Below, in pieces: positions 9,201 to 40,241 of a stretch of 64,000 nt of DNA (position 1 is the stretch's first letter; each line of letters opens with the position of its first letter). The notes under the pieces were generated by a model. It was given only the letters and a program-made list of their open reading frames with translations. It was not told where the DNA came from and did no database searches. Both the position numbers and the translations under genes were made by a program. The stretch is from Beduinella massiliensis (GTDB lineage: Bacteria > Bacillota > Clostridia > Christensenellales > Aristaeellaceae): contig NZ_LT963430.1 of the NCBI RefSeq assembly GCF_900199405.1, forward strand, positions 1,302,001-1,366,000. The letters are read 5' to 3'.

Positions 9201-9291
9201 GGAGAAGTACCCAAGAGGCCGAAGGGGCTCCCCTGCTAAGGGAGTAGTGTGCGAAAGCGCAGCCCGGGTTCAAATCCCGGCTTCTCCGCCA
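9201..9291 (+). tRNA. tRNA-Ser (anticodon GCU)
   Basis: Acceptor GGAGAAG pairs with CTTCTCC. The anticodon stem CTCCC/GGGAG surrounds CTGCTAA (anticodon GCT). It has a long variable arm, T-arm GGTTCAAATCC and an encoded GCCA end, and is probably co-transcribed with the upstream tRNA-Ser 31 bp away. Confidence 0.95.
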
Positions 9292-9294
9292 GAA

Positions 9295-9336
9295 AATCTA
9301 CTAGCTTTTGATACAAAGCTAGTAGATTATTTTTTT
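9295..9336 (+). terminator. Terminator after the tRNA-Ser pair
   Basis: A perfect 14-bp stem (9295-9308 with 9315-9328) with loop TGATAC is followed by ATTTTTTT. The same hairpin with one base change recurs at 34232-34265 after a tRNA-Val remnant. Confidence 0.9.
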
Positions 9337-9744
9337 GCCTTCAAAGCCCTGGACGCACGGGATTATAGGGAGCGTTTCGCCCGGTGATAGGGCGCACGCG
9401 TAAGATCAGGGGGAACCGGAGAGCTATTCAGCCTCCGGCCCCTTTTCCTTTTTATCCTTACAGGAGCTTGCGAAGGGAAGGGGAGGGCTCGAAAACGAAA
9501 TTTTTGCTGAGCATTGAAGCGACGGCATGCAAGTATTTTGGCGACAGCATAGAAATGTGGGCAAGATAGGAATCTGCTGGCTTTAAAAATGAAACTAGCA
9601 GATTTTTTTTGAATTTTATAAGTTGCTTTTCGTATGGAATATTTAACAAAGTATTAGTGATTTTGGGTTCCAACAAAGACGCAGGAAATTGAAACATCCC
9701 ATACTTTATTTTAGAAGGGGGATTTTATTGTCCTAATATCCATT
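9337..9744. other. Gene-poor stretch with two further terminator-like hairpins
   Basis: No supported gene. One hairpin (GGGG-CCGGAG paired with CTCCGG-CCCC, 9409-9442) is followed by a T-rich tail. A second (AATCTGCTGG with CTAGCAGATT, 9571-9604) is followed by eight T. The second resembles the tRNA-Ser terminator stem. A short frame ending near 9569 has no ribosome-binding site I trust. Confidence 0.6.
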
Positions 9745-9999
9745 TTAATTAAGTGTATCGGATGTAGATAAGATACCACTTCTTTTTGCTTCCTCTAGGA
9801 ATTCAATAAACTCTCGCACGGTTGGGATTTCTTCTTTTCGTTTTACATTATCTAAAATCACTTGTGTTTCTGGGCTTCTGTGGGGGTTAGTGAACATATC
9901 ACAGATCGCATCCTGCATATCTTTAAGAACTTGTTCAATCGGTTGTTTATGTTCAATAGCTATGGTGACGATAATTAGGTTATATTCTTCATCTGTCAT
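9745..9999 (-). CDS. Small Spo0A-C-like or unknown regulator
   Basis: An 84-residue acidic helical protein. The ATG at 9999 is chosen because GGAGGT lies 7 nt upstream; a longer frame begins at a TTG inside that site. The central part (IAIEHKQPIEQVLKDMQDAI) followed by a PTVREFIEFL segment resembles the small Firmicutes proteins often labelled as Spo0A C-terminal-like. That comparison is by eye and weak. It is divergent from the XRE gene at 10292, with a long inverted repeat between them. Confidence 0.5.
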   Translation of the reverse strand: MTDEEYNLIIVTIAIEHKQPIEQVLKDMQDAICDMFTNPHRSPETQVILDNVKRKEEIPTVREFIEFLEEAKRSGILSTSDTLN

Positions 10000-10138
10000 A
10001 GTGTCTACCTCCAATAAAGTTTAATTTGAAATGAACTCGGATTCAGGTGAATAAGGCCATGTCGCATGGATTATGGCTTCGGTTGCTTCATCGTCACAGG
10101 ATTCCGATCATAGTTTTACGAGACATCCACCTTTCTTT

Positions 10139-10177
10139 TACGCCTATATGAAGCACATTTTAACTTATATAGGCGTA
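10139..10177. promoter_or_regulatory. Inverted repeat between divergent genes, likely operator
   Basis: TACGCCTATAT (10139-10149) and ATATAGGCGTA (10167-10177) form a perfect 11-bp inverted repeat with a 17-bp gap, in the control region shared by the 9999 (-) and 10292 (+) genes. A related ACGGCGTAT occurs at 10232-10240. Binding by the adjacent XRE protein is inferred. Confidence 0.55.
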
Positions 10178-10291
10178 TTTATGCTATGCATTATATCATA
10201 AAGTGACGTAAAAAGGAATATGGTGTATTTTACGGCGTATGAATAAAAGGAAGAATCAGCTACAATTTGAGTTGAAAGAGGGCTGATAAAA

Positions 10292-10654
10292 GTGCCTATA
10301 TCTTACAAGGTAATAGGAAGTCATCTTAGGCAAGTACGTAAGAAGGCGGGGCTAACGCAAGCGACGGTGGCCGAACGGCTTGATATTTCCGCAAAGCATT
10401 ACGGACATATTGAACGTGGAGCTCGACCGATTTCTTTAGATATGTTGGGACAGCTTTGTGCTCTATATGCCATTCCGCTGGAAGCATTAGTAAAAGGTGC
10501 GTTGGTAGACGTGCCATTAGCAGAAATAAATGGAGAGACAATGGCAGATCATCAAATCGCCGGGATAATTAATATGATGCAGGGCTGTGATGCGAAAACA
10601 TTGGATTTGCTTATGGAGATTGTGGATTCCGTAACTCGTTTCACTAAGGCGTAG
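10292..10654 (+). CDS. XRE-family transcriptional regulator
   Basis: A 120-residue cytoplasmic DNA-binding protein with an N-terminal helix-turn-helix of the Cro/C1 type (residues about 7-62; GLTQATVAERLDIS, then HIERGARPISLD). The short C-terminal tail contains QGCDAKTLDLLMEI, a motif shared by several other XRE proteins in this window. It starts at GTG after a GAAAGAGGG purine stretch. It is followed by a terminator at 10670-10697. No effector domain is present, so it is probably a simple repressor; target unknown. Confidence 0.85.
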   Translation: MPISYKVIGSHLRQVRKKAGLTQATVAERLDISAKHYGHIERGARPISLDMLGQLCALYAIPLEALVKGALVDVPLAEINGETMADHQIAGIINMMQGCDAKTLDLLMEIVDSVTRFTKA

Positions 10655-10669
10655 GATTATGTCAAATAG

Positions 10670-10697
10670 AGAAGCGCTTCCGGGCGTTTCTTTTTTT
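10670..10697 (+). terminator. Terminator
   Basis: AGAAGCGC (10670-10677) pairs with GCGTTTCT (10684-10691, one G-U pair), then a T run. Confidence 0.75.
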
Positions 10698-10799
10698 TAA
10701 CGGAACCATGTCTATCTGCATGGTTTAAATACATGGCAATACGCTTGTATAGATGAATGAAATACGCTCTTATAAGTGTTTCTGTAACTTATAGGTTTA

Positions 10800-10828
10800 T
10801 TGAGCTACAAAATTCTTACCTGTACAAT
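10800..10828 (+). promoter_or_regulatory. Promoter of second XRE gene
   Basis: TTGAGC (10800-10805) and TACAAT (10823-10828) have a 17-bp spacer. A CTTATAAG palindrome lies just upstream and may be an operator. Confidence 0.6.
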
Positions 10829-10856
10829 ATGAATGTAAAGCTTAGGGGGTGGGTAT

Positions 10857-11216
10857 ATGCTATCGTATAGAAAGCTAGGCGTTAATATTCAAAAAGCTCG
10901 GCTCCGTCGCGGCTTGACACAGGAGACTGTTGCGACGAGCATGGGACTCACCCAAAACTACTATGGCCGATATGAACGGGGAGAGGTTCGACCTAGTTTA
11001 AACCGTCTATACGAGATTTGCGTGATTTTATCGACCCCCATAGAAGAAATGTTTCGTGGTACATATGATCCCAAAGAGTTCGACGAGCCTCTTCCGCCAG
11101 ATATGACGGTGATGGGCATATCGCGTTTGATTGGTGGCTGTTCACCAAAGCATAAAGCGGTCATGTATCAACTATGTGAGGCCATTGCGGCACTTGAACG
11201 CGACGATGTAGAGTGA
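10857..11216 (+). CDS. XRE-family transcriptional regulator
   Basis: A 119-residue protein with N-terminal Cro/C1-type helix-turn-helix (about residues 5-62; GLTQETVATSMGLTQNYYGR, then YERGEVRPSL). The C-terminal tail IGGCSPKHKAVMYQLCEAI closely matches that of the XRE protein at 38878. ATG is preceded by TTAGGGGGTGGG. It has its own promoter and a bidirectional terminator. It is probably a small repressor of local genes, but the target cannot be named. Confidence 0.85.
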   Translation: MLSYRKLGVNIQKARLRRGLTQETVATSMGLTQNYYGRYERGEVRPSLNRLYEICVILSTPIEEMFRGTYDPKEFDEPLPPDMTVMGISRLIGGCSPKHKAVMYQLCEAIAALERDDVE

Positions 11217-11251
11217 CGTTTCCCCTCAGGTCAAATCATGAAGATAAAAAT

Positions 11252-11287
11252 ATAAGGGGCACGAAAAAATAAATTCGTGCCTCTTAT
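11252..11287. terminator. Bidirectional terminator
   Basis: The stem GGCACGAA/TTCGTGCC with flanking ATAAG/CTTAT pairs (11252-11287) separates the XRE gene from the convergent GH43 gene. Confidence 0.8.
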
Positions 11288-11364
11288 TGTTACCCGTAAG
11301 CAATCACTTCTATAATATTTCTTGTTGGCGATTACGAAATCTCTTTAAATACGATAACCTGCTT

Positions 11365-33380: not shown

Positions 33381-33409
33381 TTGACAGGCCGGAAAACACA
33401 TGCTATAAT
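33381..33409 (+). promoter_or_regulatory. Consensus promoter of tRNA-Val
   Basis: TTGACA (33381-33386) and TATAAT (33404-33409) have a 17-bp spacer, 20 bp before the tRNA. Confidence 0.85.
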
Positions 33410-33429: not shown

Positions 33430-33505
33430 GGTCTGTTGGCTCAGTTGGTAGAGCACATCGTTCACATCGATGGGGTCACTGGTTCGAGTCCAGTACAGAC
33501 CACCA
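33430..33505 (+). tRNA. tRNA-Val (anticodon CAC)
   Basis: Acceptor GGTCTGT pairs with ACAGACC, anticodon stem CATCG/CGATG encloses TTCACAT (anticodon CAC), T-arm CTGGTTCGAGTCCAG and encoded ACCA. Its 3' 43 bp are repeated at 34178-34220. Confidence 0.95.
33456..33498 (+). repeat. 43-bp direct repeat, copy 1 (3' half of tRNA-Val)
   Basis: Identical over 43 bp to 34178-34220. Together the copies bracket a terminator and a DUF1989 gene, as attL/attR-like ends would. This copy is part of the functional tRNA. Confidence 0.85.
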
Positions 33506-33540
33506 AAGATACCATCTTCGTAAGAGGATGGTATCTTTTA
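33505..33540 (+). terminator. Terminator after tRNA-Val
   Basis: AAAGATACCATC pairs with GATGGTATCTTT across a 10-nt loop, followed by TACT. Confidence 0.75.
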
Positions 33541-33589
33541 CTATATTCTGTTGATGAAATATATACTTCACTTATTGGAGGCGAAGGTA

Positions 33590-34165
33590 ATGCAAGAATA
33601 TATCATCGGTGCGTGTAGCGGAAAGGCAATCGATGTAAAGAAAAACAAAACCATTACAGTCGTGGATTTGGAAGGCCAGCAAGTAGTAGATTTCTTTGCG
33701 GAAGCTCAATGTAATGCAGATGAGTTTTTGTCCACTGGCGTTACCATCGACTGCAATGATTCCTTGAAAATTAAAGTTGGCAATACCATCTTTACAAACC
33801 TTTATCGTCCCATGTTTATTGTCGTGTCGGACGATGTTGGCGAGCACGACTTGTTGCACCCCTGTTGCAGGCCGGAAATGTATGATTTTTTCTATAATAA
33901 TGGAACAGGCCATTCAAGCTGCTTAGACAATATCAATACCAGCCTGAACGAAAAGCGTCCAATTATTACGCCCTTCAACATTTTCATGTACACGAAAATC
34001 AACGAAGATGGAAGCATATCTGTGGAAGAACCAGTTTCAAAGCCCGGTGATGCCATCAAGTTAAAAGCCCTCATGGATGTGCGTTTGGGTATAGCAGCTT
34101 GCAGCGTATCAGAGAGTAAATGCAACGGCGGAAAATGCTCCCCCATCAAAATCATTATCGAGTAA
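33590..34165 (+). CDS. DUF1989 family protein (urea carboxylase-associated family)
   Basis: A 191-residue cytoplasmic protein of the DUF1989 family, some members of which are encoded near urea carboxylase. Visible family blocks are GQQVVDFFAE, HPCCRPEMYDFF, GHSSCLDNINT, TPFNIFMYT and SKPGDAIKLKALMDVR, with conserved Cys that may bind metal. ATG at 33590 has GGAGGCGAAGG upstream. It is clearly AT-richer than its neighbours and lies between two copies of the tRNA-Val 3' half, so it looks acquired. No urea carboxylase is present in the window; function unknown. Confidence 0.85.
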   Translation: MQEYIIGACSGKAIDVKKNKTITVVDLEGQQVVDFFAEAQCNADEFLSTGVTIDCNDSLKIKVGNTIFTNLYRPMFIVVSDDVGEHDLLHPCCRPEMYDFFYNNGTGHSSCLDNINTSLNEKRPIITPFNIFMYTKINEDGSISVEEPVSKPGDAIKLKALMDVRLGIAACSVSESKCNGGKCSPIKIIIE

Positions 34166-34177
34166 ATGTTTTGACAG

Positions 34178-34220
34178 CATCGTTCACATCGATGGGGTCA
34201 CTGGTTCGAGTCCAGTACAG
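34178..34220 (+). repeat. 43-bp direct repeat, copy 2 (tRNA-Val remnant)
   Basis: It carries the anticodon arm, variable loop and T-arm of tRNA-Val but lacks the 5' half, and its 3' end reads CCCCCACA instead of ACCACCA, so it cannot make a tRNA. Confidence 0.85.
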
Positions 34221-34231
34221 CCCCCACATAT

Positions 34232-34272
34232 AATCTACTAGCTTTTGATACAAAGCGAGTAGATTATTTTTT
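34232..34272 (+). terminator. Terminator matching the tRNA-Ser terminator
   Basis: AATCTACTAGCTTT (34232-34245) pairs with AAAGCGAGTAGATT (34252-34265), then ATTTTTT. It differs from 9295-9328 at one base, including the same TGATAC loop. Confidence 0.85.
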
Positions 34273-34461: not shown

Positions 34462-34755
34462 TTATTGCTTGGCCGGTTCTGAATCATCCTCCCCATAGTA
34501 GGTCGCAAACACGCTTTCAACCCCGTGCCGTTCTTTAGTCGATATGCCGTGCAGCAACCATTCCATATCGGTTTCCAACGCAAGGCATAACGCGACAAAG
34601 GCGTTCACGTCCAGTTCGCACTCGCCAGCCTCAAACTGCCGGATTTCCTCCGTGCTGTATTCTGTCACTCTTTCGGCAAGTTCCTCCACCGAGAGCCCTC
34701 TGTGTTCCCGTGCTTTTTGGAGGCGCTGGCCAATTTCGACGTACCGCTTATCCAT
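34462..34755 (-). CDS. XRE-family transcriptional regulator
   Basis: A 97-residue protein with a helix-turn-helix in residues about 5-65 (RGLSVEELAERVTEYSTEEI, then FEAGECELDVNAF) and a short acidic tail. Start ATG at 34755 is chosen for the AAAGGAG site upstream. The frame stays open for 76 more codons to 34983 (including ARDEESGATTLQLLLDGF), so an N-terminally extended form cannot be ruled out. A promoter-like pair at 35108-35136 would give a long leader. Target unknown. Confidence 0.75.
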   Translation of the reverse strand: MDKRYVEIGQRLQKAREHRGLSVEELAERVTEYSTEEIRQFEAGECELDVNAFVALCLALETDMEWLLHGISTKERHGVESVFATYYGEDDSEPAKQ

Positions 34756-35149
34756 AGCGTTTTGCTCCTTTTGCCCCATCGCGCAGCCTTTGAAACCGTC
34801 GAGCAGCAGTTGCAGCGTAGTCGCGCCGGATTCTTCATCCCGAGCGATCAGGGCGCAAATCCAGCCGCATCTCACGCTCGCGACAAAAACGTCAAGGCAC
34901 GTAATCCGGTTAAAGCATTGCTCGAAGCGGAGGTTCAATACCCCTTGCGCGCGCCTTGTAAAGCACAGTTTCCTGTAATACAATATGCGTAAGTCGTGGT
35001 GCCGTTAAACGGTTGCGAGGGGTAGTGTATGTACCTTTCGCAGGGCAGGTGTGCTGGTAACGCACCTGCCTGCCGCGGCGTTTTCACGCCTCGATCCTTG
35101 TGGTCGTATTACAGCTCTAACCGGCCCGAATGTCAAGGGGTGTCCTAAG
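34756..35149 (-). promoter_or_regulatory. Long leader with strong hairpin, and promoter
   Basis: On the minus strand TTGACA (35131-35136) and TGTAAT (35108-35113) are 17 bp apart, giving a leader of about 340 nt before the ATG at 34755. The leader contains a strong stem, CAGGTGTG/CGCACCTG, around 35045-35070. No known riboswitch class is recognised. Confidence 0.45.
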
Positions 35150-35512
35150 TTATTTTAAACAATTTTGCTTGTTGAATATGGAAACACCGGCTCCACCCCA
35201 ACGTTCGGAAAGCTCGTCCACCATTTCACGCAGGGCCTCGAAAACCACGGCCTTTTGTGTGCTGGACAAAAAGGGGTCTCGCCCGCCGTATAGCAGATAA
35301 AACGGACTCAGGTCTAGCACGATGCACAGGCGCGAAAAGGTCTCCAGCGACATCTTCCTGGCGCCCCGCTCAATGTGGCCGAGGAACGAAACGGAGATCC
35401 CCGTGTCCTCGGCTAACTGCTCCTGAGTCTTGTGCGCTTCTTTGCGCGCTTTCCGAATCCTCAGCCCAATTCTCTCGTAATCGATGGCGAACAGTCCCTG
35501 TTTGTTTTCCAT
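35150..35512 (-). CDS. XRE-family transcriptional regulator
   Basis: A 120-residue protein with N-terminal Cro/C1 helix-turn-helix (residues about 14-70; HKTQEQLAEDTGISVSFLGH, IERGARKMSLETF) and a C-terminal helical tail without a recognised domain. ATG at 35512 follows AAAGGAGGGGGG. It is the upstream member of a run of minus-strand accessory genes. Probably a repressor; target unknown. Confidence 0.85.
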   Translation of the reverse strand: MENKQGLFAIDYERIGLRIRKARKEAHKTQEQLAEDTGISVSFLGHIERGARKMSLETFSRLCIVLDLSPFYLLYGGRDPFLSSTQKAVVFEALREMVDELSERWGGAGVSIFNKQNCLK

Positions 35513-35622
35513 GCGGTCTTACCCCCCTCCTTTTGTGTAAAAGCTGCCGCCCAGCCAACGGGCAGCAGCTTTTGGTTAGAAATCACGCCTGAACCGGGCC
35601 ATACCGCTCGCATACCGCGCTG

Positions 35623-36054
35623 TTACGCCCCTACGACCTTTGTGTAAAGGGTGGCGCTGTCCGTGCTCGCGCCCTTAGACACATACCCGTAAATCTTCGT
35701 GCGGTAAATCATGCCCGCCTTGGCCGTGGTGCTGGTTGACTTGGTCGCGGATTTCTCCCCGGTTGCCGACCAGCTCGATCCGTTTTTCCATTTGCCATCC
35801 TCAAAGTATTGCAGCGTAATGGTAACCTTAGCGTAGGTGCAATCGCCCGATACCGTCCCCGTCAGGTACACCTTCCCGTCTTTGACCGAGGTGTTGCCGT
35901 GGATGGACGAGATCAGCACATACGCGGGCGCTATGCCGTCGGCCTGTTGTTCAATGCGGCTCGCCGCCTTCTCTACTACTGACGCCGCCTGTGCGCTGGC
36001 GGTACCGCTTAAAACCAGCAGCGCAAGCGCGATTGCCCCAAATTGCTTGCCCAT
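35623..36054 (-). CDS. Small secreted beta-rich protein, paired with DUF4367 protein
   Basis: A 143-residue exported protein: signal peptide about residues 1-22 (LALLVLSGTASAQA), short helical stretch, then a beta-sandwich-like domain (about 45-143) with GKVYLTGTVSG, VTITLQYFEDGKWKNG and YRTKIYGYV strands. Its layout matches the secreted protein at 47766 (GKVY, hydrophobic strand, G-x-W, late YK/YR strand). Both lie directly downstream of a DUF4367 membrane protein. Translation starts 40 bp after that gene with AGGAGGG upstream. No named family is assigned; probably surface or extracellular. Confidence 0.7.
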   Translation of the reverse strand: MGKQFGAIALALLVLSGTASAQAASVVEKAASRIEQQADGIAPAYVLISSIHGNTSVKDGKVYLTGTVSGDCTYAKVTITLQYFEDGKWKNGSSWSATGEKSATKSTSTTAKAGMIYRTKIYGYVSKGASTDSATLYTKVVGA

Positions 36055-36094
36055 GATTTTCCCTCCTAAATGGTGTAGTTATTGAATCCTCGCG

Positions 36095-36808
36095 TCAGGA
36101 GACGCGGTTCAATCCATCGACGATTTGTTGTATTTCTCGATCCGTTACGGCTGTGTCAAAATCCATCTGCACATACGCCTCGCCCACCAGCAGGTAGGCG
36201 GTCGTGTGTCCGCTTTCCGCGTTCCAGACGTGGATCGTGCCCCGCTTGGATTCGATCACGTGGTGCGCGGCATGCTCGTTGTCATAGCTGGCCGAAGCGC
36301 CGCGCGGATAGTAGTAGTATTGAATCTGTTCCCCCGCGCCGTTGACGTAAGACATGTAGAGCATGTCTCCCGTGGTGGTGTGGTAGTTCGACGCGTAGCC
36401 GCTCGGCATCAGGCTGGGGACGACGTAGCCCTGCAGGTCGGCGTATCGATCATAGGCCACGGATTCCACGCGGACCGCTTCGTGGCTGGTGAAGACGCGC
36501 AGCACGGAGGCCCGAATGCTGTCGGCCATACCCGGCACGGATAAGAGCAGCACCAGCAGGACCGCCATCGCCGCTATCCCGGTTTGACCGGCCACGGCTT
36601 TCCATTGCCGTCGTGGCCGCGCCGTATAGGTAATGTGGTCCACCTTAACCTCCTCGTTCATAATCATCCGGTAGGTTTCGAGGCTTATCCCAAATCTCCG
36701 CGCGATTTCCTGATCCATCCGCTTCAGGCGTTGTGCCAGAAATTCAGCCTCAGCCAAATCATCTTCCGTCGCTTTTTTCGAGAGTTCCTTGATTCTATCA
36801 ATTAGCAT
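36095..36808 (-). CDS. Membrane-anchored DUF4367 protein
   Basis: A 237-residue protein with a cytoplasmic N terminus (residues 1-85, including an RRFGISLETYRMI segment that may contact a regulator), one membrane helix (about 86-106) and an external DUF4367 domain (about 135-237; YVVPSLMPSGYASNYH and a Y-rich middle). DUF4367 domains are often found C-terminal to anti-sigma-factor-like membrane proteins. ATG at 36808 is chosen because AAGAAGGTGG precedes it. It shares a compact divergent promoter region with the XRE gene at 36941. Confidence 0.78.
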   Translation of the reverse strand: MLIDRIKELSKKATEDDLAEAEFLAQRLKRMDQEIARRFGISLETYRMIMNEEVKVDHITYTARPRRQWKAVAGQTGIAAMAVLLVLLLSVPGMADSIRASVLRVFTSHEAVRVESVAYDRYADLQGYVVPSLMPSGYASNYHTTTGDMLYMSYVNGAGEQIQYYYYPRGASASYDNEHAAHHVIESKRGTIHVWNAESGHTTAYLLVGEAYVQMDFDTAVTDREIQQIVDGLNRVS

Positions 36809-36849
36809 GTTCCACCTTCTTTTTTCTGTCAAATTGATAGTTTGCCTCT

Positions 36850-36915
36850 ATCTTATCTCGAATCCTGACGACATGTCAAGGGAATATTGACAAAAGTCTC
36901 TCAGCTTGATAAAGT
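36850..36915. promoter_or_regulatory. Back-to-back divergent promoters
   Basis: Leftward: TTGACA (minus, 36874-36879) and TAAGAT (36850-36855), 18 bp spacer. Rightward: TTGACA (36887-36892) and TAAAGT (36910-36915), 17 bp spacer. The two -35 boxes form an inverted repeat separated by 7 bp, so the two polymerases would compete. Confidence 0.75.
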
Positions 36916-36940
36916 GCTGCTATCGGGAGGGCTGTGAAGT

Positions 36941-37363
36941 ATGGACGAAAAAGAAAAAGCCTTGCATGAAATGCAGAACCGGTTTTTGGCGATCCGAAAA
37001 GCCTTGAAAAAGTCACAGGCAGAAATGTCTCAGGCTTTAGGCTATTCCGATTCCTATTACAGCAAGTTGGAAGTCGGCAAGGATGAGATTCGCAAGAATG
37101 TCATTTATCAGGTGTGCCTCACGTTTAATGTATCGCGCGAATACCTCATCAAGGGCGAGGGGCCGATGTTCGTGGAAGCCGACGTGCGCATGGAGCGCCT
37201 TTGTAAGCTGTTCAAAGAATTATCCGAGCCCTGCCAGGAGCTATTGCTGGATATGGTCGAATACACGGTCAACAAGCGTCAAGCGGAAAAGGCTCAAGCC
37301 GAGCGTTTGGAGGCAGATGTTGAAACCAACGTAAGCGAGGAAGAATCCCCGGCAATCGAATGA
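36941..37363 (+). CDS. XRE-family transcriptional regulator
   Basis: A 140-residue protein with helix-turn-helix in residues about 12-72 (KKSQAEMSQALGYSDSYYSK, then LEVGKDEIRKNV), followed by REYLIKGEGPMF, a feature of phage-type repressors, and a charged C-terminal helix. ATG at 36941 follows CGGGAGGGCTGTG. It is divergent from the DUF4367/secreted-protein pair and is the obvious candidate to control it through the shared promoter region. A terminator follows at 37461. Confidence 0.85.
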   Translation: MDEKEKALHEMQNRFLAIRKALKKSQAEMSQALGYSDSYYSKLEVGKDEIRKNVIYQVCLTFNVSREYLIKGEGPMFVEADVRMERLCKLFKELSEPCQELLLDMVEYTVNKRQAEKAQAERLEADVETNVSEEESPAIE

Positions 37364-37460
37364 AGAATACGTGTATCCTAAGTGCGCCGCGCTCTTAGGC
37401 TATAGTACCGCCCTCATACGCCAAGGGAAGGGAACACGTACATAAATACTAGAATAGGCA

Positions 37461-37500
37461 AGCCCGGAGTGCGCTCAAGCATTCCGGGCTCTTTCTCTTT
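37461..37500 (+). terminator. Terminator
   Basis: AGCCCGGA (37461-37468) pairs with TCCGGGCT (37483-37490), followed by CTTTCTCTTTC. Confidence 0.75.
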
Positions 37501-37519
37501 CCGTCGAACCAGACGGCGC

Positions 37520-37822
37520 TCACGACTGGATCGATCCCCAGCACTTATCTGAATCTGGATCATAATAGATAGCAAACCTCGCACCATGACCACAGGTGTA
37601 AGCCGTAAAGGACAAATAGCCGCTATCCCGTCCTTCGATATACCCTGCCGTACCGCGCAAATAGGGGGTGTCGACTTCTTCCACGTGCCACTCAGCTTTC
37701 GGATTACGACTGAGTACCTCACAGGCACAAGGCGGCGTCGGCCTGATTTGACCATATAGCAGGGTGATGCAACACACAAGGGCGGCAAAGCCGAATACCA
37801 GCCGCCAGAAAAGTCTGGACAA
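37520..37822 (-). CDS. Small membrane-anchored or secreted protein
   Basis: A 100-residue protein with one N-terminal hydrophobic segment (residues 5-24, LVFGFAALVCCITLLYG) and an external part with several Cys, Tyr and Gly residues. The start is TTG at 37822 with GGGAG upstream. It has no recognised family. It sits between an XRE gene and a Spo0E-like gene in the accessory block. Confidence 0.5.
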   Translation of the reverse strand: MSRLFWRLVFGFAALVCCITLLYGQIRPTPPCACEVLSRNPKAEWHVEEVDTPYLRGTAGYIEGRDSGYLSFTAYTCGHGARFAIYYDPDSDKCWGSIQS

Positions 37823-37960
37823 ACACGATCCGCTCCCTTCCTACATCGCTACGAAAGATACACCGTCAGCAGAGGCGCTGCCAGCGCCCGATGGTTAGGC
37901 TATATTTAGACCGTGTTGCCTATATAGATACCTATTCAGCGGTCAAAAAAAAGAACGTCA

Positions 37961-38203
37961 TCATGAATCGCAAAAGTAACCTTTCATGTCCCCGAGTTTC
38001 AATACCAGTTGATCCAGTTCTTTTGACAATTCCATGATCCTCGGCGCTGTAAGGGGTACCCCTTTTCGGATGTTCAGCCTTTTGATTCGCCAGTTGTAAT
38101 ACTCCACCTTGCGCGCGAGCCACCACATTTTCCAGCCATCCCGGACTAAAGATACACGCCTTCTGGGGTGCAGACGCATGGAATCCATCTTCATAGAAAT
38201 CAC
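37961..38203 (-). CDS. Spo0E-like sporulation phosphatase
   Basis: An 80-residue protein whose C-terminal 45 residues read VEYYNWRIKRLNIRKG, a short linker, then MELSKELDQLVLKL. This resembles the two-helix Spo0E family, in which an SQELD-like motif carries catalytic residues for dephosphorylating Spo0A-P. Here the motif is SKELD. The N terminus is Arg-rich. GTG at 38203 with AAAGGATGG upstream is the likely start. The family call is by eye; if right, it would delay sporulation. Confidence 0.6.
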   Translation of the reverse strand: MISMKMDSMRLHPRRRVSLVRDGWKMWWLARKVEYYNWRIKRLNIRKGVPLTAPRIMELSKELDQLVLKLGDMKGYFCDS

Positions 38204-38271
38204 GCTCCATCCTTTGTTCTGCCCGTAACCTTGCTTCGTCGCCCATTATATCATAGTTGGCACTTAGAATC

Positions 38272-38283
38272 CATACTAGTATG
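38272..38283. promoter_or_regulatory. Perfect 12-bp palindrome, likely operator
   Basis: CATACTAGTATG lies between the divergent Spo0E-like and XRE (38351) genes, 67 bp before the XRE start. Confidence 0.45.
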
Positions 38284-38350
38284 CATAAACCTGTAACAAA
38301 GCGGGAAAGGACGATAAAATAAACCTATCAATGTGAATGGATGTGATTGA

Positions 38351-38689
38351 ATGGCAGTATCGTTACTGCTGCTGGGAAGGCGAATACGCGAAGCTCGCAA
38401 GCAGAAGAAATTCACGCAGGAGCAGCTTGCCGAGATGATCGATGTATCTCCCTCGCATATGTCAAAGGTGGAACGTGGCGAGAACCAAATTTCCCTTCTG
38501 GCCTTGGGTCGCCTTTGTGACGTATTGGACGTTCCTTTTGAGCTAATCGCGAGCGGCGCGTCCGTACCGGCAAATCCCGAATACAACCAGCAGTTTACCG
38601 CCATTCTTCAAGACTGCGATGAACAGACCATCGCGGCTATGCTGGACATATGCCAGCGTGTTAAGGATGTGCGCAATCTGCCTAAATAG
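38351..38689 (+). CDS. XRE-family transcriptional regulator
   Basis: A 112-residue protein with helix-turn-helix at residues about 8-62 (KKFTQEQLAEMIDVSPSHMSK, then VERGENQISLLA) and a C-terminal tail with LQDCDEQTIAAMLDICQRV, the variant tail motif found in other XRE proteins of this window. The ribosome-binding site is weak (GGATGTGATTGA before ATG). A perfect palindrome upstream may be its operator. Confidence 0.82.
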   Translation: MAVSLLLLGRRIREARKQKKFTQEQLAEMIDVSPSHMSKVERGENQISLLALGRLCDVLDVPFELIASGASVPANPEYNQQFTAILQDCDEQTIAAMLDICQRVKDVRNLPK

Positions 38690-38788
38690 GTTCAGCCTGT
38701 CGAAGCACCGGCCTATCTATGTACCACTTGGAATAATTCATAATACATAGAGCATACTTTTCCTCTATAAGTTCTCGAAACCAGCATC

Positions 38789-38812
38789 CATATAGGCTAC
38801 GTTGCCTATGGG
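38789..38812. promoter_or_regulatory. Inverted repeat upstream of XRE gene
   Basis: ATAGGC (38792-38797) and GCCTAT (38804-38809) lie 6 bp apart upstream of the gene at 38878. Related CGCCTATAT/ATATAGGCG arms occur at 10140-10176, and GCCTATATAG occurs at 37918. Confidence 0.4.
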
Positions 38813-38877
38813 GGTATATTGTCAGATTACGGGAAATCCTGGAGAATATTATCAGATAAAGTATAGGGGTGTTCGGC

Positions 38878-39231
38878 GTGCTGGATTATAAGAAACTTGG
38901 CCTCAACATCAAACGGGCTCGAATGAAGGCCGGTTTGACGCAGGAAGCTCTAGCCGGTCAGATGAAAATATCGCCGGATTACTATCGCAAGCTGGAACAC
39001 GGCGTGGTCCGCATTAACCTCGAGCGGTTGGAGCAAATCAGCGAGCTGCTGTCGGCCCGGATCGAAACCTTCTTCGCGGGTACTTATACGGTTCGAGACT
39101 TTGTCGAACCGCCAACGGACGGCGCTGAATTGGTTGAGGACATGCTGCATGGATGTAGTCCAAAGGGGATGGAAGCCATTTTATCCATCTGTGGCATCGT
39201 GTCGGAGCTGGATAAAGAGATTAAAAAATGA
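38878..39231 (+). CDS. XRE-family transcriptional regulator
   Basis: A 117-residue protein closely matching the one at 10857 in layout (MLDYKKLGLNIKRARMKAGL against MLSYRKLGVNIQKARLRRGL) and tail (LHGCSPKGMEAILSICGIV). The helix-turn-helix is at residues about 5-62. GTG at 38878 is chosen over GTG at 38869 because TAGGGGTG then sits at the right distance and the paralogue starts at the same residue. Its end overlaps the convergent gene at 39221 by 11 bp. Confidence 0.82.
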   Translation: MLDYKKLGLNIKRARMKAGLTQEALAGQMKISPDYYRKLEHGVVRINLERLEQISELLSARIETFFAGTYTVRDFVEPPTDGAELVEDMLHGCSPKGMEAILSICGIVSELDKEIKK

Positions 39232-39589
39232 TTTTACGGCTCGGCATTGGGGGTTGATTCCTGAGCCAATAAGCGCATTTTCGCAAGAAGAATAGAGGCA
39301 TAACCGCGTTTGTTGTTCCGGTGATTCTTTCGTACAAATCGGGGTCGTACTTCTTCGCGCGATCAGGAACGCGCCGTAATGTGCTGGCAACGGTTGAATA
39401 GTTGGTACCCTCTTTGTCAGCGATGTACTGATAAAGCGAGTTTCCATAAGGCACGTCCGAATACAGCGTATCCAGCGCGGTGTAGAAATACTTGAAATGA
39501 ACTCTCAGATAAAAGCACATGGCCTCCATTCGCGCATTGACGGGCTTTTTAATGGTTCTGCGTTCATCGTCGGGTATAGTGTTGCTCAT
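39221..39589 (-). CDS. Possible Spo0A C-terminal-like DNA-binding protein
   Basis: A 122-residue soluble protein. The middle part (FYTALDTLYSD, then SLYQYIADKEGTNYSTVAST and LRRVPDRA) resembles the helical Spo0A effector domain pattern (LYPDIAKKF-type helix followed by an ERAIRHAI-type recognition helix), without a receiver domain. The similarity is weak and judged by eye. ATG at 39589 is favoured over ATG at 39595 because AGAAAGAAGG ends right at the latter. It overlaps the convergent XRE gene by 11 bp. Confidence 0.5.
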   Translation of the reverse strand: MSNTIPDDERRTIKKPVNARMEAMCFYLRVHFKYFYTALDTLYSDVPYGNSLYQYIADKEGTNYSTVASTLRRVPDRAKKYDPDLYERITGTTNAVMPLFFLRKCAYWLRNQPPMPSRKIIF

Positions 39590-39631
39590 AATCATCCTTC
39601 TTTCTGTGCCGTATCAAGCAGAGCCAGCCTC

Positions 39632-39736
39632 TTATAACGCGGCAAAACACTCTCTTGGCTGGTACGGGGACTTTAGAAGCGGGGACTTCCGGGACGCTTT
39701 CGTTTCGCAGGCTCGGCTTGGAACCTCTGAGTCCAC
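39632..39736 (-). CDS. Possible 34-residue small protein
   Basis: GTG at 39736 follows AGGAGGGAATTGG at good spacing, and the frame runs 34 codons (MDSEVPSRACETKASRKSP onward) ahead of the gene at 39589. It is basic with Ser/Lys/Pro content and no known family. An overlapping frame starts at a GTG upstream. Coding status is uncertain; it could be a leader peptide. Confidence 0.25.
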   Translation of the reverse strand: MDSEVPSRACETKASRKSPLLKSPYQPRECFAAL

Positions 39737-39863
39737 CCAATTCCCTCCTTTTCTGTGCTGTAGTCACAGTTTTATTATATCATAAAAAGTCTGTATTCGG
39801 AAAATGAATCCTTATTTGGATTCTGGCAGACACTAAAAAATAGGACTATAGGAGGTAGTGAAA

Positions 39864-40241
39864 ATGATCAGCTACAAGATTGTCGGAAATCACATCAGGA
39901 ACGCAAGGCTACGGCTGGGGCTGAATCAAGCGGAGGCGGCGGAGCGGGCGGGAATATCAACGCCATATTACAGTAAGTATGAGCGGGGTGTCATCAAACC
40001 GAACCTCGACCGACTTGGAGATATATGTATCGCGTTGAACATTCCTCTGGAGACCGTGTTTCAAGGCGCATTGATTACGGAGGACCGGATACTGGATAAC
40101 ATGCCGCCAAGCGCGGAAGAGTTCGAGCAGTACTTGCAGGAGATCACCAAGAAGGCTGACGACCGAACAAAGAGAATTATGATGCGCATTTGTGATGAAC
40201 TGGCGAATCTACAGGCCGAGACGTCCAAAGAGGCTGAATAG
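39864..40241 (+). CDS. XRE-family transcriptional regulator
   Basis: A 125-residue protein with helix-turn-helix at residues about 6-62 (GLNQAEAAERAGISTPYYSK, then YERGVIKPNLDRL) and a helical C-terminal tail (KKADDRTKRIMMRICDELANL) related to the other tails. ATG at 39864 is chosen because AGGAGGT is 7 nt upstream; the GTG two codons earlier is too close. It is the last gene of the accessory block. Confidence 0.85.
   Translation: MISYKIVGNHIRNARLRLGLNQAEAAERAGISTPYYSKYERGVIKPNLDRLGDICIALNIPLETVFQGALITEDRILDNMPPSAEEFEQYLQEITKKADDRTKRIMMRICDELANLQAETSKEAE

Follow-up and report, generated by a model that had tools for sequence, protein, structure and literature searches.

Integron gene cassettes and pdif modules are single-gene units whose recombinase is supplied in trans. 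For the genomic islands found at tRNA and tmRNA genes, the excerpted text of the Islander study names tyrosine integrases as the catalysts (PMC4383910), and tyrosine integrases also accompany the tmRNA islands in the excerpt used from PMC12595487, one of which is transduced by a jumbo phage. The Dehalococcoides ssrA islands have a serine recombinase, DsiB; according to the part of PMC3146451 drawn on here, they carry the displaced 3' end of their target as a direct repeat, can lie in tandem and possess an integration module in 16 of 31 cases. Finally, the relevant sections of PMC5704250 describe serine-recombinase IMEs with very short direct repeats, the site-specific ones disrupting dispensable genes, as well as cis-mobilizable elements (CIMEs), which are decay products of ICEs and IMEs and accrete in tandem at tRNA genes.

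Small units at tRNA genes that hold one or a few genes and no recombinase readily escape notice, since island finders seeded on integrases pass over them. Among the titles and abstract openings of the open-licence PMC literature, we recognised no earlier description of large serine recombinases (LSRs) that target tRNA genes together with recombinase-less one-gene units. Here we analyse such a unit in Beduinella massiliensis, within a stretch of 64,000 nucleotides that we refer to as the window. A preliminary description had reported a 43-bp repeat of tRNA-Val(CAC) enclosing one AT-rich DUF1989 gene and no recombinase, and the repeat, tRNA, Pfam and GC analyses presented below confirm that account.

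Results

A single-gene unit between tRNA-Val(CAC) and a copy of its 3' half

The left junction of the unit (attL) is the 3' part of an intact tRNA-Val(CAC) gene on the plus strand (33430-33505 by ARAGORN, 33430-33502 by Rfam), which is preceded at 33381-33409 by a promoter-like TTGACA-17-TATAAT found in a scan. A segment of 43 bases of this gene (33456-33498), reaching from the anticodon stem (5' strand) to within the acceptor stem (3' strand), is repeated exactly, on the same strand, at 34178-34220, and 45 of 46 bases match over 33456-33501. The number of chance pairs like this one expected in 64 kb is ~1e-16 by an i.i.d. estimate. When a 36-base pattern was searched with up to 3 mismatches, it occurred at 2 sites in the whole genome, both at the insert, while its reversed control had no match in the genome at the same setting. 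The second copy is the displaced tRNA-Val 3' half and forms the right junction (attR). Its tRNA end is eroded past 34220, though still similar to the intact one; there the displaced copy reads ACAG-CCCCCACA and the end of the tRNA ACAGACCACCACA, differing by eye by one deletion and one substitution.

A hairpin with a few T residues behind it (33505-33538, plus strand), recognised by eye and not reported by the scan that gave the promoter-like sequence, is probably a terminator brought in by the insert. Next comes a GGAGG (33577-33581, plus strand, also by eye) that probably serves the DUF1989 gene as its ribosome-binding site. The gene runs uninterrupted on the tRNA strand from the ATG at 33590 to a stop codon ending at 34165 and encodes 191 aa (PF09347, E 2.9e-42). 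The 12 bases between this stop codon and the displaced half (34166-34177, plus strand), together with the end of the gene, are treated as the element-side attachment arm in the arm comparisons below. The DUF1989 gene is the single ORF between 33506 and 34177, and no recombinase or phage fragment was seen in the 722-base unit. Its composition also sets it apart: GC content is 0.41 over 33506-34177 vs 0.576 for the window, and third-position codon GC is 0.49 in the DUF1989 gene vs 0.77 in the gene upstream.

Beyond the displaced half lies a second terminator-like hairpin (34232-34272, plus strand), again not reported by the scan, which is identical at 40 of 41 positions to 9295-9335, the stretch that follows tRNA-Ser(GCT) in the same genome. 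Given this near-identity, the original chromosome is probably represented by the displaced half and what follows it, with 34232-34272 as the original tRNA-Val terminator, in which case the hairpin beside the tRNA would have come with the insert.

XRE-type regulator genes follow both of these near-identical stretches. Several XRE/HTH_3-like regulator genes (3 confirmed by Pfam) occupy the ~6 kb downstream of the insert (34462-40241), with some TTTCGCC motifs near them, and the AT-rich region after tRNA-Ser(GCT) (9290-11300) holds two XRE-like genes. A second copy of the tRNA-Ser(GCT) 3' end was not found in the 64-kb window.

The cargo protein and its relatives

The DUF1989 protein scores 144.6 bits against PF09347 (gathering cut-off 27). 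It falls below the curated cut-offs of the NCBIfam UAAP models; against TIGR03424 (UAAP2) it reaches 96.3 vs 284.7 bits. Sequence relatives in the PDB are 3oru and the TMAO demethylase 9q59. DUF1989 relatives occur in 17 of 200 family genomes, the insert host included, and the 14 family copies compared are 56-72% identical to the protein of the insert. DUF1989 as tRNA-linked cargo elsewhere was considered and rejected: in the 16 other family genomes, the flanks read, which reach 1.5 kb at most and less where a contig stops, contain no tRNA. In 14 of these 16, wider flanks contained no tRNA-Val half, and a single genome had a tRNA (Trp), ~6 kb away. Two IMG/VR stretches matched a DUF1989 peptide pattern and neither encodes a relative; a phage collection gave no DUF1989 match, and the sole DNA match in a plasmid collection was to a Clostridioides plasmid at 70% DNA identity.

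The tRNA-Val(CAC) site in related genomes

Vertical conservation of the tRNA-DUF1989-remnant arrangement, which the preliminary description had named as the observation that would speak against its interpretation, was rejected. The arrangement is absent from both other genomes of the genus as far as they can be read: in G001, tRNA-Val(CAC) is followed by a terminator, and the 142 bases left before the contig stops hold no second half; in G002, what follows the tRNA looks by eye like an ordinary terminator, and the remaining ~2.1 kb of the contig likewise lack a second half. The DUF1989 genes of the 16 other genomes have no tRNA within the flanks of up to 1.5 kb described above. A precise empty site with identical flanks, which the preliminary description had also suggested looking for, was not found, since the flanking sequence of G002 differs and the contig of G001 ends.

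Allowing up to 3 mismatches, the tRNA-Val 3'-half pattern is present in 118 of the 200 genomes of the family searched, and with up to 1 mismatch in at least 153 of 308; of the genomes not among the matches listed in the 308-genome search, 12 were searched again. Flanks were read for part of these matches, which makes the counts of units lower bounds. At least 14 family genomes, including the insert host, carry an intact tRNA-Val(CAC) and a displaced half on the same contig and strand, and the check proposed in the preliminary description, for other cargo between the same repeats, was positive in the 13 other genomes. The units measure 722, 999, 1195, 1360, 1731, 2180, 2567, 3183, 3362, 3563, 4190, 6775, 6891 and 10649 bases, 11 of the 14 being shorter than 5 kb. 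Excluded from this set were the two pairs of G290 (L206, a tRNA plus a tRNA, and L207, two displaced halves); L209 repeats L203 on a second G273 contig. The displaced halves L079, L256, L258, L261 and L266, which ARAGORN calls tRNAs, are not intact genes.

With 3 LSR queries, tblastn detected an intact LSR in one of the 14 units (L059), decayed pieces in another (L065) and nothing in the remaining 12, and a tyrosine-recombinase motif was flagged in none of the 13 units scanned (all but that of the window). Cargo mostly differs from unit to unit. A Pfam search of 9 proteins from 6 loci returned an HTH_3 regulator, a List_Bact repeat protein, a PD-(D/E)XK protein and a GT2 plus GtrA, with some proteins having no match or one below the cut-off only; the 6775- and 6891-base units (G090 and G184) have genes in common, partly inverted. 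All listed ORFs of at least 140 aa lie on the tRNA strand in 10 of the 11 units below 5 kb. Same-strand cargo as a rule was nevertheless rejected, given the opposite-strand ORFs in the L207 unit, in one unit of L287 and in L289, where both ORFs are reversed (L287 and L289 are at tRNA-Ala).

In 7 of the 8 full-length displaced halves, 53-56 of the 56 queried bases are repeated. The LSR pieces in the 3.4 kb unit of G077 (L065) are 74-87% identical to the LSR of the viral contig L197. In this same locus, the acceptor stem of tRNA-Val is of another type than that of the displaced half, which looks as if a different allele had taken the place of the 3' half and the 5' side had followed. In L070, L139, L141 and L161, second 3'-half copies just past tRNA-Val are seemingly split by tens to a few hundred bases, the splitting inserts showing by eye a GCCGCC...GGCGG-like palindrome, and in L161 the second copy occurs twice.

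An LSR clade associated with tRNA-Val(CAC)

The LSR of the L059 unit is 520 aa long, and its relative on L197 has Resolvase, Recombinase and zinc-ribbon domains. A profile of 3 LSR sequences, applied to 308 family genomes at 1e-60, gave 58 matches in 48 genomes, 15 of the matches being on the same contig as a tRNA-Val 3' half. Among the 13 strongest, 11 share a contig with such a half (no more than 4.6 kb away in 10 cases, 19.9 kb away in one) and a twelfth (G072) lies ~1.2 kb from tRNA-Val(CAC); the weaker matches L256, L258, L261 and L266 adjoin tRNA-Ala(CGC) 3' halves. Seen from the target, a clade LSR (at least 36% identity over at least 365 residues) lies downstream of 11 of 101 intact tRNA-Val(CAC) genes, for which up to 12 kb each and 601 kb in total were searched. 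The other finds past these genes were decayed LSR pieces in one case (L065), a distant LSR relative in three (24-27%) and a tyrosine-recombinase motif in two. Clade LSRs also stand beside the full-length displaced halves L059, L065, L079 (= L185), L197 and L199, one of these LSRs being decayed.

LSR relatives were located at 55 loci in genome contigs and at 28 loci in IMG/VR, and two viral contigs (L197/L305 and L199/L318) hold both an LSR and a tRNA-Val half. Within the fetched stretches of the 55 loci, ARAGORN called tRNA-Ala(CGC) in 32, tRNA-Ala(GGC) in 2, tRNA-Asn(GTT) in 5, tRNA-Val(CAC) in 2 (L078 and L079, the latter a displaced half) and none of these in 14. In L096-L098, L101 and L118, from four Monoglobus and one uncultured Clostridia, a clade LSR lies upstream of tRNA-Asn(GTT) in the same direction, and L098 has a second copy of the tRNA-Asn(GTT) 3' part 182 bases on.

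The insert host genome contains no clade LSR at 1e-60, its only matches being 23-30% identical, and just 2 of the hosts of the 12 recombinase-less tRNA-Val units (G273 and G090) have a clade match at that threshold. By eye, two serine recombinases, apparently of another kind, lie to the right of the displaced half in L198, and a transposase-like fragment is found at the displaced half in L062. Repeat length was rejected as a marker of recombinase type, as a 21-base copy is present both in L071, with a clade LSR, and in L170, with a tyrosine-type motif.

Attachment arms of LSR-bearing and recombinase-less units

We compared the sequences flanking the displaced halves on the element side, using p-values obtained from base shuffles and uncorrected for the number of arms; L196 and L223 fell outside these tests, as too little sequence precedes them. 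AGAGCA stands directly before the core in 30 of the 37 displaced-half rows other than that of the window, and to its left the arms fall into groups. The recombinase-less L058 shares 22 of 28 arm bases with the LSR-bearing L059 (p 0.0002-0.0005), and the arms of L202, L205 and L208 reach uncorrected p-values of 0.013-0.045 against LSR-linked arms. In all, four of the 12 recombinase-less tRNA-Val units fall below an uncorrected p of 0.05, one of them clearly, and eight, the insert (G000) among them, lie above it. The displaced half of the insert has no AGAGCA before its core, and its arm matches no LSR-linked arm (best 12 of 28, p 0.40-0.47); neither does it match any of 31 other arms (p 0.30), whose mutual likeness is inflated by the AGAGCA that they keep. 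The decayed-LSR unit L065 and the viral L197 are alike in their arms and also in their LSRs.

Units at tRNA-Ala(CGC) and tRNA-Trp

At tRNA-Ala(CGC), two one-gene units, 1175 and 770 bases long, stand in tandem in the L287 locus (G190), and 17 of 28 positions of each of their arms agree with arms belonging to the LSR genes themselves (p 0.001 and 0.004). The arm of L288, at tRNA-Ala, does so at 16 of 28 (p 0.018). In L256 (G196), a one-gene unit of 833 bases comes after an LSR gene and a displaced half at tRNA-Ala(CGC), and the arm of this unit agrees at 18 of 28 positions (p 0.001). The two arms of L289 and that of L290, likewise at tRNA-Ala, do not match LSR-linked arms.

As a negative control, tRNA-Trp failed, since units occur there too. 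The six same-contig tRNA-Trp pairs fetched, which are from among the matches listed and give lower bounds, comprise three whole-tRNA duplications (L292, L293 and L296) and three unit-like cases (L291, L294 and L295, of 708, 1186 and 2033 bases), indicating that duplicated 3' halves with cargo are not special to tRNA-Val in the family. Pieces in L295 read by eye like a tyrosine recombinase. More than one type of recombinase may be at work on tRNA 3'-half units in this family.

Discussion

Site-specific integration at the 3' end of tRNA-Val is well supported as the origin of the 722-base unit. That the unit is recombinase-less cargo placed there in trans by a tRNA-targeting LSR is the reading that we favour, and we consider it about evenly poised between right and wrong. 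Under this model, the tRNA gene would have recombined with a circular DNA on which the DUF1989 gene lay together with a terminator and a tRNA-Val 3' half of its own; the incoming 3' half would then have restored tRNA-Val and pushed the original half to the far end. To judge from the relatives, the recombinase would most likely have been a member of the tRNA-Val(CAC) LSR clade, encoded by a phage or island and acting in trans. By its present state the unit seems old and is probably immobile, since both edges of its displaced copy have changed and the genome has no clade LSR.

Movement in trans, one of two origins offered by the preliminary description, finds support in some relatives, from arms held in common and from tandem association. 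The arms speak for it clearly in one tRNA-Val unit, weakly in three, and also in some tRNA-Ala units. The arm of the insert does not extend this to its own copy. The insert shares with the clade's units its target and its duplicated 3' half; its arm is unlike theirs, and neither the unit nor the genome contains a clade LSR. For the insert, then, we infer trans movement from target and anatomy.

The other origin offered, the remnant of a larger element, is possible yet somewhat doubtful: a prophage, ICE or IME at tRNA-Val would have decayed until one cargo gene was left between the attachment sites, as in the formation of CIMEs described in the excerpted PMC5704250. The erosion at both edges of the displaced half is in keeping with such decay, as are the larger islands and viral contigs found at tRNA-Val in relatives and the G077 unit with its pieces of an L197-like LSR. 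The insert itself, however, is clean, with one uninterrupted gene ending 12 bases from the right half and no relic of a recombinase or phage, and clean units of 1-3 genes with mostly different cargo recur at tRNA-Val and tRNA-Ala(CGC).

It is unlikely that a tyrosine recombinase, another serine recombinase, or homologous recombination between a circle bearing a tRNA-Val fragment and the chromosome produced the insertion. The unmatched arm of the insert is in keeping with such an origin, and other enzymes do occur in this setting (the tyrosine-recombinase motif downstream of 2 of the 101 intact tRNA-Val(CAC) genes, the tyrosine-recombinase-like pieces of L295 and the serine recombinases adjoining the half in L198, the last two by eye), but clade LSRs are found past 11 of these 101 genes and at the five full-length displaced halves listed above. 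An assembly or duplication artefact, for which we found no support except the shortness of the repeat, is very improbable for a unit whose gene differs in composition from its surroundings and that lies inside a 3.97 Mb contig (of a 4.18 Mb genome in 3 contigs), with like arrangements in 13 other genomes.

If placement by a tRNA-targeting LSR in trans holds for such units, single genes that are no part of a phage or island could be spread by it, and shared arms would provide a testable pairing of helper and client. More broadly, and as a tentative proposal that we hold to be possible rather than probable, tRNA genes of this family may serve as landing platforms on which LSRs specialised on tRNA-Val(CAC) and tRNA-Ala(CGC), carried by phages and small islands, shuttle one-gene, recombinase-free units. 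Every such unit would supply a terminator along with its tRNA 3' half, and units could be stacked in tandem; genes would then be captured much as by an integron, though none is present, and the window would hold the smallest complete tRNA-Val unit found, now frozen.

How does this locus relate to described systems? As in the islands of the Islander excerpt, a restored tRNA and a displaced fragment mark the two ends of the insert; unlike those islands, which have their integrase gene inside, it contains only the DUF1989 ORF (PMC4383910). The Dehalococcoides ssrA islands, in the portion of PMC3146451 considered, are similar in that a serine recombinase acts at an RNA gene, the displaced 3' end is repeated, tandems form and the integration module is sometimes absent. 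They differ in their tmRNA target, their 20 bp repeat and a DsiB that is a homologue of CcrB with a six-gene module, whereas the family units target tRNA-Val and tRNA-Ala and, in 7 of 8 full-length cases, repeat 53-56 of 56 bases. An LSR clade whose integration leaves a tRNA restored and a repeat of at least 53 bases also departs from the serine-recombinase IMEs as characterised in the sections of PMC5704250 used here.

With CIMEs, the insert has in common that cargo lies between attL and attR and that genes for recombination or transfer are absent, and family units too can be found in tandem at one target. As to an origin by decay, which CIMEs imply, the insert unit yielded no relic, and the unit of one relative, G077, retains recombinase relics. 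The family units differ from the CIMEs of the PMC5704250 excerpt in often holding one or few genes and in the LSR clade that goes with the tRNA.

The insert resembles integron cassettes and pdif modules in being a single-gene unit and, as proposed here, in depending on a recombinase in trans. It differs from them in its boundary, which is a tRNA 3' half and not attC or pdif, and in starting with a terminator-like hairpin.
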